Below, one piece after another: positions 27,472 to 63,032 of a DNA stretch of 64,000 bases. Within the stretch, counting starts at the first letter, position 1, and each line of letters opens with the position of its first letter. Under the pieces are notes generated by a model. That model was not told where the DNA came from, ran no database searches, and worked only from the letters and a program-made list of their open reading frames with translations. Source of the stretch: Gramella sp. MAR_2010_147 (GTDB lineage Bacteria; Bacteroidota; Bacteroidia; Flavobacteriales; Flavobacteriaceae); assembly GCF_900105135.1 (NCBI RefSeq), contig NZ_LT629741.1:2829001-2893000 (forward strand), written 5' to 3'. A program made the translations under genes and the position numbers.

Positions 27472-29469
27472 ATGAGCAGTACAGAATTTGGAGACATCTC
27501 ATTCGATTTACCTAAGAATCAATCGAACGTCATCAAAGTGATAGGAGTAGGCGGTGGAGGAAGCAATGCCATCAACCATATGTTCCAGTTGGGAATTAAA
27601 GGGGTTGATTTTGTTGTTTGTAATACCGATTCCCAGGCACTAGAGAACAGTTCGGTTCCAAACAAGATTCAATTAGGTGTGACCCTTACCGAAGGACTTG
27701 GAGCAGGAGCAAATCCCGAAATTGGGGAAAAAGCAGCAGTAGAAAGTTTTGAGGAAATCAAACAAATGCTGGATTCTAACACCAAGATGGTTTTTATAAC
27801 TGCCGGAATGGGTGGTGGTACCGGAACCGGGGCTGCGCCAATCATTGCCAAGCAGGCCAAGGAACTGGATATCCTTACGGTTGGTATTGTAACGATTCCT
27901 TTTCAGTTTGAAGGGAAAAACAGAAATGAACAGGCACAATTAGGGGTTGAAAGACTACGCCAGAATGTTGATTCTCTAATTGTGATCAATAATAATAAGC
28001 TTCGTGAGGTTTATGGAAACCTTGGTTTTAAAGCCGGTTTTTCAAAAGCTGATGAGGTCCTTGCCACAGCTTCCAGAGGTATTGCAGAGGTAATTACGCA
28101 TCATTACACGCAAAACATTGACTTGCGGGATGCGAAAACCGTGCTTAGTAAAAGCGGTACTGCAATTATGGGGTCTGCCCAGGCTTCAGGAGCCAGCAGG
28201 GCTACAGATGCTATTATGAAAGCTCTTGATTCTCCGTTATTAAACGATAATAAGATCACCGGTGCCAAAAATGTTTTACTGCTTATTGTATCTGGCAACG
28301 AAGAGATTACTATTGACGAAATTGGGGAAATTAACGATCATATTCAGGCGGAGGCTGGACATTCTGCTAACATTATTATGGGTGTTGGTGAAGATGAATC
28401 TTTAGAAGATGCGATTGCCGTAACTATTATTGCTACTGGTTTTGATGTAGAACAGCAAAACGAGATCACTAATACTGAAACTAAAAAGATCATCCATACA
28501 CTGGAAGATGAGCAAAGGGCTGAGCAGGATTTAACTACTAAGAAATCTGCCCCTATTTCACAGGTGACCAATGCACCTGTAAATGATAATCCAAAGAATG
28601 AATTGCAATTTGACGAGCCTGCAAAGGATGAGAAAATAGTTCATAAGCTGGATGAGTCTGTGGAGGAAGTTGACGAAGTGGGCAATATTCATAAGAAAGT
28701 AGATGATGTTCTTAAAACGCCAGATTTCGCTCGTAAACTGGATGTGACTTATGAAGAAGTTGATCCTGAAGATTTCATTATTAACGATACAAATGAAGAT
28801 GCTGGTTCAATGGAAGTAAATGAACCTGAAGAGACCAAATCTGAAAGTGAAGATCAATTCATGTTTACTTTTGATATGCCAATGAACAAGGAAGAAGAAA
28901 AGCCTGCTTCCACTGAAAAGTCTCAGGAAGTAACAAGGCATCATCTTGAAGAGGAGGAGATCAAAGAGGAAGCGAAGAATATTAAAGTCAACGAAGCGGT
29001 AGAGATCGTTCCGGTTACTGAAAGTTCTGCCCAGGGAATCAAAAGATATAGTCTTGACGATTATATGGAAATGGAGCAGAAGCTTGAAAATTCTAAGGCT
29101 CCTAAGAAAGAAGAAGTGAAAGATGAGACTATCGCTTTTGAAAAGAAAACCGTAGCTCCGGCTCCTGAAAAGGAAAATACGGGTGACGGCCATGATCCTT
29201 TCGATAATCCTATTTCTTCTGAAGTGGTAAGACAAAGAACCGCCGAGCGGAAGGCGAAAATGAAGGAATTCAATTATAAGTTTAGAACCGGAGGATCAGC
29301 TCAAATAGATGAGATCGAGAAACAACCTGCTTACAAGAGAGCAGGTATCGAACTTGATAATTCAAAACCTGGAGAAGGTAAATTATCCCGTACCAGTATA
29401 GATCAGGATGAAAATAATGATCTGCATTTTAGAAAGAACAACTCTTTTCTACACGATAATGTAGATTAA
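27472..29469 (+). CDS. ftsZ: Cell division protein FtsZ with long C-terminal linker
   Basis: Tubulin-like GTPase forming the Z ring. 665 residues, against about 380 in E. coli. The GTPase core (about 15-325) carries VGGGGSNAINHM, the tubulin signature GGGTGTGAAP and the synergy loop region NNNKLREVYGNLGFKAGFSKADE. Residues about 330-600 form an acidic, low-complexity, probably disordered linker. The C-terminus contains RTAERKAKMKEFNYKF and KQPAYKRAGI, conserved-looking segments that may contact FtsA. Last gene of the cluster, closed by a perfect terminator. Confidence 0.96.
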   Translation: MSSTEFGDISFDLPKNQSNVIKVIGVGGGGSNAINHMFQLGIKGVDFVVCNTDSQALENSSVPNKIQLGVTLTEGLGAGANPEIGEKAAVESFEEIKQMLDSNTKMVFITAGMGGGTGTGAAPIIAKQAKELDILTVGIVTIPFQFEGKNRNEQAQLGVERLRQNVDSLIVINNNKLREVYGNLGFKAGFSKADEVLATASRGIAEVITHHYTQNIDLRDAKTVLSKSGTAIMGSAQASGASRATDAIMKALDSPLLNDNKITGAKNVLLLIVSGNEEITIDEIGEINDHIQAEAGHSANIIMGVGEDESLEDAIAVTIIATGFDVEQQNEITNTETKKIIHTLEDEQRAEQDLTTKKSAPISQVTNAPVNDNPKNELQFDEPAKDEKIVHKLDESVEEVDEVGNIHKKVDDVLKTPDFARKLDVTYEEVDPEDFIINDTNEDAGSMEVNEPEETKSESEDQFMFTFDMPMNKEEEKPASTEKSQEVTRHHLEEEEIKEEAKNIKVNEAVEIVPVTESSAQGIKRYSLDDYMEMEQKLENSKAPKKEEVKDETIAFEKKTVAPAPEKENTGDGHDPFDNPISSEVVRQRTAERKAKMKEFNYKFRTGGSAQIDEIEKQPAYKRAGIELDNSKPGEGKLSRTSIDQDENNDLHFRKNNSFLHDNVD

Positions 29470-29534: not shown

Positions 29535-29741
29535 CTATGAGTTCTGGCTCTTTGCCTGAACTTCATCGGTGTCTTTTCTGTATTTTAACATTGAAATTCC
29601 GGCAACAAAGAATACGAAGCCTAGGATAGTAAGCGCCCAGGGGCTGAGCATTAATGCTACACTGCCAAAAATTCCTAATACACCCATTACAAGTGCAATT
29701 GCACCTCCAATAAGCATAATCATTGCTAAGATTTTAATCAT
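29535..29741 (-). CDS. Small two-helix membrane protein
   Basis: 68 residues with two hydrophobic segments (about 3-25 and 30-50) separated by a short Pro/Ser turn, and a polar C-terminal tail (KYRKDTDEVQAKSQNS). No family recognised. Convergent with ftsZ behind the terminator and 68 bases downstream of the pyrophosphatase gene, so it could be read from the same promoter. Good start context and composition make a real gene likely. Confidence 0.6.
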   Translation of the reverse strand: MIKILAMIMLIGGAIALVMGVLGIFGSVALMLSPWALTILGFVFFVAGISMLKYRKDTDEVQAKSQNS

Positions 29742-29809: not shown

Positions 29810-30298
29810 TTACAATTCTGCATGATTTCGTAATATCTTATTTTCAGTTTCCTTTTCGTCAGCCCAGCCCTGTATTTCAGTTTTATCTGCAGGATCGTAA
29901 TTTGTAAACCAGCTTTCCAGAATATTCTTCACTGGTTCGTATTTTTTAACGAAATCTTTAAAAGTTTCAGCATCGATCGTTCTCAGTTTGGGGTCTGCAG
30001 GAATAGCAATTACTTTAAAATCCTCCTCATCTGCATCAATCAATTTAAGCATACCAATGGGAATTATTTCTATAATTTCGCCGGAAGGGATGGTAGAGCT
30101 AAGCACCATTACATCCAAGGCATCCCCGTCTCCTCCTTTTTTTGGATCTGAAAAGGTGGAAGGGATAAAACCATAATTGGCTGGATAGGCTAGAAAGTCA
30201 ATTGTTCTTTCTTTCCCTTCTCTCAAAGATGGCTTAAAGACTTTAGAGATCTTATCATACTCGATTTTAGAATTGGTCCCAGCCGGGATCTCTATCAC
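29810..30298 (-). CDS. ppa: Inorganic pyrophosphatase (family I); signal peptide interrupted
   Basis: Hydrolyses pyrophosphate. The open frame from GTG at 30298 gives 162 residues with VIEIPAGTNSKIEYD, YPANYGFIPSTF, the metal-binding GGDGDALDVMVL signature and WFTNYDP..IQGWAD, so the catalytic domain is intact. Upstream in the same frame, beginning at ATG 30406, the sequence reads MRYLLII-stop-CLCLFIGCKSS, then continues to this domain. This is a lipoprotein signal (lipobox FIGC) broken by one TAA at 30383-30385. ATG 30406 is 2 bases after the upstream gene's stop, supporting it as the ancestral start. As read, only a shorter, cytosolic enzyme could be made by internal initiation. Confidence 0.88.
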   Translation of the reverse strand: MIEIPAGTNSKIEYDKISKVFKPSLREGKERTIDFLAYPANYGFIPSTFSDPKKGGDGDALDVMVLSSTIPSGEIIEIIPIGMLKLIDADEEDFKVIAIPADPKLRTIDAETFKDFVKKYEPVKNILESWFTNYDPADKTEIQGWADEKETENKILRNHAEL

Positions 30299-30408
30299 TG
30301 CCTGATAATACCCGTTTTTGGATTTAAGATCTGTGTTGAGATAATCTATTGACGATTTGCACCCGATAAATAAACATAGGCATTAAATTATCAAAAGATA
30401 TCTCATGG

Positions 30409-30966
30409 TTAATTCCAGTAGATCATAAAGTATTTGATCTTGGCATCATCCGGTATCTGGGAAGCCATGATCTTACTATCGGTATCATACCTTAGGTTGG
30501 TAGGTAATTGATTTTTATCTATGGTAATGTATGCGTTTATTTCGTCCAGAAATACCACTGCAGAGTTTATGGTATTTTCAATTCTGGAGATAGTATAATT
30601 TTCTACAACCTCCTTAAAAGTACTTTTAATGTTTATTCCATGTTTAGTTTCATATCGTGGATCCAGAATCCTGATGTAGCCTATAGTACTCGTTGAGTCA
30701 AACTCCTGTAGAGGTTCCAGACTCATCAAAGCCTGCCCGTCTTCGCTAAAAATCTTGATCTCATCTGTTGAACGAAATTCCTGCGGACCGCTGGTTTGCC
30801 TTACTATACTGTCTCCCTGAAAAATTGAATCTAATTGATTTATCTTAATATCTTTTTTTAGGGGGCCAACCTGGGTAGGCGAAATAAGAAATGGATTTTC
30901 TTCATCACTGGTACAGGATAATACACTAATACATAAACCAATAATCAATAAAGCTCTTTTGTACAT
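30409..30966 (-). CDS. Hypothetical lipoprotein upstream of the pyrophosphatase
   Basis: 185 residues with a clear lipoprotein signal (LLIIGLCISVLSC, Cys at 18). The mature part contains a Ser/Thr/Asp-rich region and alternating beta-like segments (SEDGQALMSLEPLQEFD, IGYIRILDPRYETK, NAYITIDKNQLP). No family recognised. It is 18 bases downstream of the HerA-like ATPase gene and just ahead of ppa, so the three likely form one leftward transcript. Confidence 0.65.
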   Translation of the reverse strand: MYKRALLIIGLCISVLSCTSDEENPFLISPTQVGPLKKDIKINQLDSIFQGDSIVRQTSGPQEFRSTDEIKIFSEDGQALMSLEPLQEFDSTSTIGYIRILDPRYETKHGINIKSTFKEVVENYTISRIENTINSAVVFLDEINAYITIDKNQLPTNLRYDTDSKIMASQIPDDAKIKYFMIYWN

Positions 30967-40927: not shown

Positions 40928-40975
40928 TATAAAATAATTTAAATGAAGACTTGAAAGATATACGTCATAATCGGG

Positions 40976-41608
40976 ATGCTCTTTATATTTCTGGGTTCAT
41001 GTAAATCTCCAGGAATCATAGATAAACCTATAAACTTTGAAGAGGATCGCATAGATCTAACTTTGGAATATATGCAGGATCGTTATGGGCTGGACAGAAA
41101 ATCACCTGAAATAGATCCAAAGATGATCGTTTTGTATTGGACGGCAATTCCAACACTTGAAGATTCATTTCAGGCATTCAAAAGTTCAAAATTGCCTCAA
41201 TCCAGGGAAGCGATTTCAGGAGCGAGTCAGTTAAATGTATCTGCACATTTCCTGGTAGCTAGAGATGGTACTATTTATAGGTTAATGCCTGAAACCATGA
41301 TGGCCCGGCATGTCATTGGATTGAATCATACCGCCATTGGGGTTGAAAACGTGGGAGGAACTAAAGATACTCCGCTTACAAATGCCCAATTAAAATCCAA
41401 TATCTGGCTGGTTAATTATTTAAGTGGTAAATATGACATTCAATATGTAATTGGTCATTATGAATATACCAACTTTGAAGATCATGAATTATGGTTGGAG
41501 AAAGATTCAGGCTATAGAACAGAAAAGGTTGACCCTGGCGAAGATTTTATGAAAGCAGTTAGAGATGCAACACAAAACAGGAATTTCAGGAAAGTTCCTT
41601 CAAAATAA
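40976..41608 (+). CDS. AmiD-like N-acetylmuramoyl-L-alanine amidase, probably inactivated
   Basis: Amidase_2 family; members cleave the MurNAc-L-Ala bond. The open frame gives 210 residues, beginning with only eight residues before the lipobox Cys (MLFIFLGSC). In the same frame ATG 40943 would give MKT-stop-KIYVIIGMLFIFLGSC, a normal lipoprotein signal interrupted by TGA at 40952-40954. The zinc site is also damaged: the first ligand, His in the family motif (V-L-H-W-T-A), is Tyr54 here (VLYWTA, codon TAT). The second His (VIGHYEY) and Asp (KVDPGEDF) remain. It is followed after 5 bases by the M14 peptidase gene. Likely a decaying gene. Confidence 0.78.
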   Translation: MLFIFLGSCKSPGIIDKPINFEEDRIDLTLEYMQDRYGLDRKSPEIDPKMIVLYWTAIPTLEDSFQAFKSSKLPQSREAISGASQLNVSAHFLVARDGTIYRLMPETMMARHVIGLNHTAIGVENVGGTKDTPLTNAQLKSNIWLVNYLSGKYDIQYVIGHYEYTNFEDHELWLEKDSGYRTEKVDPGEDFMKAVRDATQNRNFRKVPSK

Positions 41609-61937: not shown

Positions 61938-63032
61938 TTATTGACCTCCGCCACGGCCACCTCTTGATGAGGATCTTCCACCAGAACTTCTTGTGGTGCC
62001 TGAGCTTCTGCTTAAACTACTTGAGCTTCTCACTGAACCGGATCTTGAAGAACTTGAACTTCTTCTTGAACTGGACGAGCGATATGTGCTGTTGCTACTT
62101 CTGGAAGATCTTTCATAAGTAGGGGAACTGCTTCTATTGCTACCAGTATCGTAACTTCTGGCAGGCGCGGTTCTTCGGCTTGTTCTTGTGTACACCCTGG
62201 CATCACTATCTCCGGCGCTACTTCGAACTCTGGAGGTTCCGTAATCTGAAGATCTGGAATTTCTTATATCTCTAATTCGTTGAGAATAGGAATTTCTTCG
62301 GCTAGGTCCTTCGCTATAAGTCGCTCTGGAATTTCTTCTACCATTATTATGTGCAACACGGGTATTATAAGGATTGTAGTAATCGTAATTGTTGTAATAG
62401 TGTGGGTAATATGGATTATAATATGGCCCAAAACCACCGTAACCGTAACGATGACCAAAACCAAACCCGAAATTTAGACCAAATCCTATATTCCATCTGG
62501 ATCCACCATAGGCGTAAGGTCCGTATCCTCCCCAGAAGTTTCCTGGCCAGTAAGGATCATACCAGCCACCGTAATGATGAGGGAATCCAAAACCATAACC
62601 ATATCTCCACGGGGAATAAAACCCTCCGTAAAAACCATTATTATATATGTTTACCGTATAGGTATCTGGATCTTGGCCCCAAGGAGCATTTCCACCAACA
62701 TAGGCCACGTCACCACCAATTTCAGAGTAATTTTCATACCTGTCATTAGAGCTATAGCTGTCTACATCAGTAAAAACAGCGCTTTCAAGAACTTCTCCAA
62801 CCATTTCAGATTGTTCAGAAAAAAGATTCTTATAATAAGAGTTATTACTGTTAGGTCTAACTTCCGTTGCCTCTTGTTCTGGCTGTTCAAGGATTCCTGG
62901 TCTGGATTCTCCATAAATTCCATCGGCTTCGTACCCTGAATATTGATAGGAACCACAGGAAACCAATGCGAAAACAGCCATCGGCGCGAGCAGAAGACTT
63001 AATTTATTTCTTAGAGTGTAGTAAAGTTCCAT
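61938..63032 (-). CDS. Gly/Tyr-rich and Ser/Arg-rich low-complexity lipoprotein
   Basis: 364 residues. Lipoprotein signal ending FALVSC (Cys at 26). Residues about 30-120 are acidic and polar. Residues about 125-225 are extremely rich in Gly, Tyr, Phe, Trp and Pro (YGYGFGFPHHYGGWYDPYW). The C-terminal about 135 residues are Ser/Arg repeats of the RSSSS kind ending GGRGGGQ. No conserved enzymatic motif. Such composition suggests an extended, sticky surface or matrix protein, but this is inference. Divergent from proS. Confidence 0.75.
   Translation of the reverse strand: MELYYTLRNKLSLLLAPMAVFALVSCGSYQYSGYEADGIYGESRPGILEQPEQEATEVRPNSNNSYYKNLFSEQSEMVGEVLESAVFTDVDSYSSNDRYENYSEIGGDVAYVGGNAPWGQDPDTYTVNIYNNGFYGGFYSPWRYGYGFGFPHHYGGWYDPYWPGNFWGGYGPYAYGGSRWNIGFGLNFGFGFGHRYGYGGFGPYYNPYYPHYYNNYDYYNPYNTRVAHNNGRRNSRATYSEGPSRRNSYSQRIRDIRNSRSSDYGTSRVRSSAGDSDARVYTRTSRRTAPARSYDTGSNRSSSPTYERSSRSSNSTYRSSSSRRSSSSSRSGSVRSSSSLSRSSGTTRSSGGRSSSRGGRGGGQ

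Follow-up and report, generated by a model that had tools for sequence, protein, structure and literature searches.

Family I soluble inorganic pyrophosphatases (PF00719) are the closest described relatives of the enzyme considered here, whose domain matches nearly the whole of that profile (positions 2-150 of 153) with 111.1 bits, against a Pfam cut-off of 23.5. Among solved structures, 59 distinct sequences matched at E values up to 0.001 (best 3.3e-18). The acidic motif DGDxLD and the D....D.K region are present, as GGDGDALDV and DADEEDFKV, and align with two solved chains; we take the residues of this region to have the roles that they have in family I pyrophosphatases. By domain content, then, the gene codes for a predicted family I pyrophosphatase, with catalysis predicted from the domain. 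No paper on this gene appeared among the literature matches listed, which are excerpts; an excerpt of PMC12016528 describes another Christiangramia strain.

The gene lies on the reverse strand of the window, the 64,000-nucleotide stretch of the Gramella sp. MAR_2010_147 genome that was analysed, and its frame is interrupted by a single stop codon within a lipoprotein leader. Below we compare the locus with its counterparts in Christiangramia, the genus to which we refer throughout (24 genomes, comprising this one, G000, and 23 others), and in the wider family, and weigh four accounts of the stop besides the one that we favour.

An interrupted lipoprotein gene

The interval 30406-29810 (-) forms one gene of 198 codons (Table 1). 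Its translation reads MRYLLII-stop-CLCLFIGCKSSIDYL... and continues into a complete family I pyrophosphatase, as a sequence-only reading of the window had described. The details of that description held as well: the ATG at 30406 sits 2 bases past the end of the preceding gene (30966-30409), and the TAA at 30385-30383 is the only stop ahead of the terminal one, interrupting an otherwise regular lipoprotein signal with the lipobox FIGC. The lipobox cysteine is codon 16 and so lies 3′ of the stop at codon 8; an in-frame signal peptide running up to this cysteine is encoded, but the TAA cuts it. Between the stop and GTG 30298 there is no in-frame ATG, GTG or TTG, and an anchored lipoprotein form would therefore need read-through or a rare start. 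The protein recorded for this genome (P0003) begins at GTG 30298 and has 162 amino acids. For the 185-residue product of the preceding gene, Pfam and NCBIfam profiles gave no match.

Table 1 Features of the pyrophosphatase locus and of the second interrupted leader (window positions)
Feature	Position	Strand	Basis
Leader codons 1-7, MRYLLII	30386..30406	-	Translation; aligned leaders of relatives
In-frame TAA, codon 8; hydrophobic residue in the ten gene-holding congeners	30383..30385	-	Translation, alignment
Lipobox FIGC, codons 13-16, past the stop	30359..30370	-	Translation; Cys conserved in relatives
19-codon out-of-frame ORF (MPMFIYRVQIVNRLSQHRS); its ATG overlaps the TAA (TAATG)	30324..30383	-	By eye
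Predicted inorganic pyrophosphatase domain; longest common-start ORF (GTG 30298), 162 aa	29810..30298	-	PF00719
Upstream gene, 185-aa protein with lipoprotein-like leader (by eye); conserved 5′ border of slot	30409..30966	-	
68-aa membrane-like protein gene, no Pfam match; conserved 3′ border of slot	29535..29741	-	
Convergent gene, presumably ftsZ	27472..29469	+	Named by recognition of sequence
Amidase_2 lipoprotein gene, 72.4 bits; leader MKT-TGA-KIYVIIGMLFIFLGSC	40943-41608	+	Profile match

The gene is present at E <= 1e-40 in 10 of the 23 other genus genomes, and each of these ten carries an uninterrupted leader with a lipobox cysteine. Nine of them share the length of 198 codons with this gene, and their leaders align without gaps; the tenth (G012) has 197 codons. 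At codon 8 the column listing of the alignment gives I, V or L in all ten, a sense codon at exactly the place where this genome has its stop. Outside the genus, the same threshold is reached in 23 of 396 other genomes sampled from the family, and by a motif rule of our own a lipoprotein-like leader is in frame at all 23 loci, with TTG as the start codon in one. The statement in the sequence-only reading that flavobacterial pyrophosphatases can carry such leaders is thus borne out at the ten congener and 23 family loci, and its refuting condition, relatives that lack an in-frame leader, does not apply: the leader is open in all 33 relatives, and the stop is private to this genome among the 34 loci compared. 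The near-constant codon count, the gap-free leaders and the hydrophobic codon 8 indicate a genuine leader, not a fortuitous reading of upstream DNA. Predicted from sequence as it is, the lipoprotein leader is a real and widespread feature.

Two congeners illustrate the uninterrupted state. C. forsetii (G006, P0001) and C. sediminis (G011, P0006) hold the gene in the same slot and with the same 198 codons, the former with 83% identity over the whole frame and 86% past the stop, the latter with 82% and 84%, but in both the leader is uninterrupted. In the C. forsetii record the protein begins only at an internal ATG (186 aa, MYGCK...), so that the leader of its 198-codon frame is hidden.

One slot in several states

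The gene occupies a slot between the 185-aa gene and the 68-aa membrane-like gene, beside a convergent gene (27472..29469, +) that we take to be ftsZ from recognition of its sequence. Orthology follows from shared neighbours in the 11 gene-holding genus genomes, this one included, and from an alignment with a single gap, in one genome. The upstream slot gene was found in 23 of the 24 genus genomes, the exception being a genome that is 67% complete, and the 23 slots fall into nine with an intact gene, two with an in-frame TAA, one with an eroded remnant and 11 without significant trace. The remnant (G022; E values of 2.6e-27 and 7.4e-19) lacks the start codon and the central part of the gene; the G015 slot, with a marginal match at E 0.086, was counted as gene-less. 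Mapped on a tree built from the neighbouring 2 kb, in which several nodes are weakly supported, this distribution requires eight losses under Dollo and six changes under Fitch parsimony.

The two nonsense cases lie at different codons. C. aestuarii BS12 (G003, L054, P0027), like this genome, has a gene that aligns throughout apart from one in-frame TAA, but its stop is at codon 157, so that the leader is intact and the C-terminal part is lost. The truncated protein of 156 aa (P0027) is on record for three contigs, one of them under a name from another organism, and the C. aestuarii TAA is on these grounds probably not an assembly slip. The source with the divergent name files P0027 under Pontixanthobacter gangjinensis, probably a mislabelled record. 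For the present genome, the P0003 cluster comprises two member sequences on one contig, whose recorded length (3158583) exceeds that of the G000 contig (3158483) by 100, and the nearest protein beyond it is 86% identical; no second strain of the species was identified, so the TAA at codon 8 may not be fixed in the species.

We think it probable that the stop is a real and recent nonsense mutation that has removed an exported enzyme, and that it is a step in the repeated loss of a dispensable gene. The ancestral product would have been a family I inorganic pyrophosphatase that was exported and held by a lipid anchor. With the nonsense mutation at codon 8, translation would halt inside the signal peptide without yielding a lipoprotein, and the catalytic domain, no longer translated, would be an early pseudogene of what looks like an accessory gene, lost again and again in Christiangramia lineages. 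The frame is disrupted where its orthologues are open, the mark of a nonsense pseudogene. On this account the present gene would yield no useful product, and its loss would be neutral or weakly selected. Loss of export is thereby the best supported of the three readings first offered for this locus, although as a step in gene loss and not, as had been suggested, as the move of a functional enzyme into the cytosol.

A second soluble pyrophosphatase homologue is encoded elsewhere in the genome (G000:C1:1661885-1662196; 41% identical over residues 25-136, in an open frame of 172 aa), beside an H+-pyrophosphatase (1659391-1661520). The soluble homologue is presumably the cytosolic housekeeping enzyme, in which case loss of the exported enzyme would leave the removal of cytosolic pyrophosphate untouched.

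Selection, product and base accuracy

Selection was assessed with a codon model written for this analysis, with the free-branch test as the main result. Omega was 0.065 on the branch leading to this genome against 0.071 elsewhere (2 delta lnL 0.05), and omega = 1 on this branch was rejected (2 delta lnL 19.1); the underlying tree has weak nodes, with a support of 0.17 for grouping this genome with C. forsetii (G006). Omega is thus not raised, as it would be under relaxed selection past the disruption, and the same is expected if the stop is young. A second run with fixed branch lengths, which exaggerates contrasts with omega 1, put the neutral fraction of this branch over all codons at 0 as the best fit, and at 2.5% at most. 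With the same fixed lengths, codons 9-36 gave an omega of 0.078 and a neutral fraction of 0 (at most 15%) and codons 37-198 an omega of 0.060, while codons 1-16 alone say little (omega 0.341, neutral fraction 0.10, up to 0.85). On the C. aestuarii branch, where the gene is also broken, omega was 0.024 with free branches, below the rest (2 delta lnL 7.2), and 0.055 with fixed branch lengths (2 delta lnL 1.6); selection therefore shows no sign of loss there either. Normal purifying selection implies that the stop is young, that a product is still used or that the base is wrong, three options that the selection test does not separate. The lack of visible decay after the stop counts against gene loss; it is also what one would predict from a product still in use or from an error in the assembly.

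The enzyme might still be made without its anchor, as a cytosolic protein of 162 aa starting at GTG 30298, which we regard as unlikely. The PF00719 domain is nearly complete from this GTG, the 162-residue frame is open and constrained (the omega for codons 37-198 given above), and the recorded prediction takes this start. However, codons 9-36, which would be untranslated in this case, are constrained as well, and this argues against an old switch to GTG 30298, since those codons would otherwise have drifted. Codon 37 is GTG in five of the ten congeners too and hence not clearly a newly gained start; solved pyrophosphatases that match from query residue 1-3 have at least 10 residues before that point; and the genome already holds the second soluble homologue. 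Reinitiation at the ATG overlapping the stop was considered and rejected, as it leads out of frame into the 19-codon ORF and would not yield the enzyme.

We give no better chance to the idea that the TAA is a sequencing or assembly error in an intact gene. The lack of any sign of relaxed selection would fit such an error, as would a second interrupted leader 10.6 kb away (see below) and the unfinished state of the assembly. The first 7567 bases of the contig equal its last 7567 (L175 1-7567 and L275 10917-18483) with 27 gaps covering 28 bases and 0 mismatches, and we read these repeated ends as an untrimmed circular overlap. The error mode visible there is the indel, and this makes an error unlikely for the TAA, as one indel could not keep both flanks in frame, although contig ends may not represent the interior. 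Furthermore, comparing the window with the matching ORFs of four congeners (55, 47, 52 and 52) flagged no shifted-frame piece, and many congeners have a broken copy of this gene or none. Sequencing error, also among the readings first offered, is accordingly improbable from the assembly differences.

As a baseline for broken genes, 117 gene pairs were compared each way between this genome and C. forsetii (G006). On the side of this genome the comparison found one in-frame stop (column 152 of 155) and two frameshift flags, both inside the first 504 bases of the contig; the C. forsetii side had two in-frame stops. One window gene near 62.1-63.0 kb matched congener ORFs only in part: for 62547-63032 (-), the first ~160 residues of a gene of 353-362 aa in three congeners match, and the rest is missing or diverged.

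A second leader stop and comparison with known enzymes

The second interrupted leader belongs to an Amidase_2 lipoprotein gene (Table 1), in which a TGA at 40952-40954 forms codon 4, 10.6 kb from the pyrophosphatase stop. Leaders of this gene are open at that place in nine other gene-holding congeners, the gene being found in 10 of the 24 genus genomes at E <= 1e-30. From an in-frame ATG at 40976 there would be only eight residues ahead of the cysteine. Omega for the amidase is 0.100 on this branch against 0.055 elsewhere, a difference that is not significant (2 delta lnL 2.22), and it differs from 1 (2 delta lnL 14.1); in this test the leaders of G014, G004 and G017 entered in shortened form.

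A reference-free scan of our own design for leader stops returned two candidates in the 55 long frames of the window. Elsewhere in this genome it returned none in 654 long frames from 40 stretches (with 53 normal lipoprotein-like leaders), and it likewise returned none in 326 frames from 20 stretches of C. forsetii (G006) and none in 85 and in 227 frames from congener stretches around the matching region. The result for the 654 frames argues against a genome-wide habit, yet there are two cases in one window against none elsewhere. With two lipoprotein enzymes interrupted within 10.6 kb and the catalytic frames of both open and constrained, the strain could be supposed to un-export enzymes by means of leader stops, a proposal that we find more doubtful than either a cytosolic product or a base error. 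Were it true, a cytosolic or reduced form might stay in use through reinitiation or read-through at a low level. The two stops look like chance events in dispensable genes, not like a system.

Least credible of all is that the stop is read through and a low level of lipoprotein made, the last of the readings first offered: constraint on this branch on both sides of GTG 30298 would agree with it, but termination at a TAA followed by T is efficient, all 33 relatives lack the stop, and no tRNA with anticodon TTA or TCA was found at the places of the 50 Rfam tRNA matches. The Rfam scan scored 150 of its 228 first-look candidates and may have passed over an unusual tRNA. A tRNA-Pyl (cta) at L275 7335-7417 was called by ARAGORN alone; it is outside the Rfam list of the genome, is not expected to read TAA and is probably spurious.

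Nothing at this locus points to a new mechanism. If the stop is the recent nonsense mutation that we favour, the slot documents the loss of an exported pyrophosphatase across one marine genus, with the stages (intact, nonsense, eroded and gone) kept at a single locus. It also illustrates how automatic start calls, such as GTG 30298 here and the internal ATG of the C. forsetii record, can hide signal peptides that are lost or present. Compared with the named NCBIfam pyrophosphatase equivalogs, the protein scores below the curated cut-offs (69.7 against 200, 55.1 against 246 and 40.2 against 247 bits); compared with typical family I enzymes of PF00719, it belongs to a flavobacterial branch that carries a lipoprotein-like leader.
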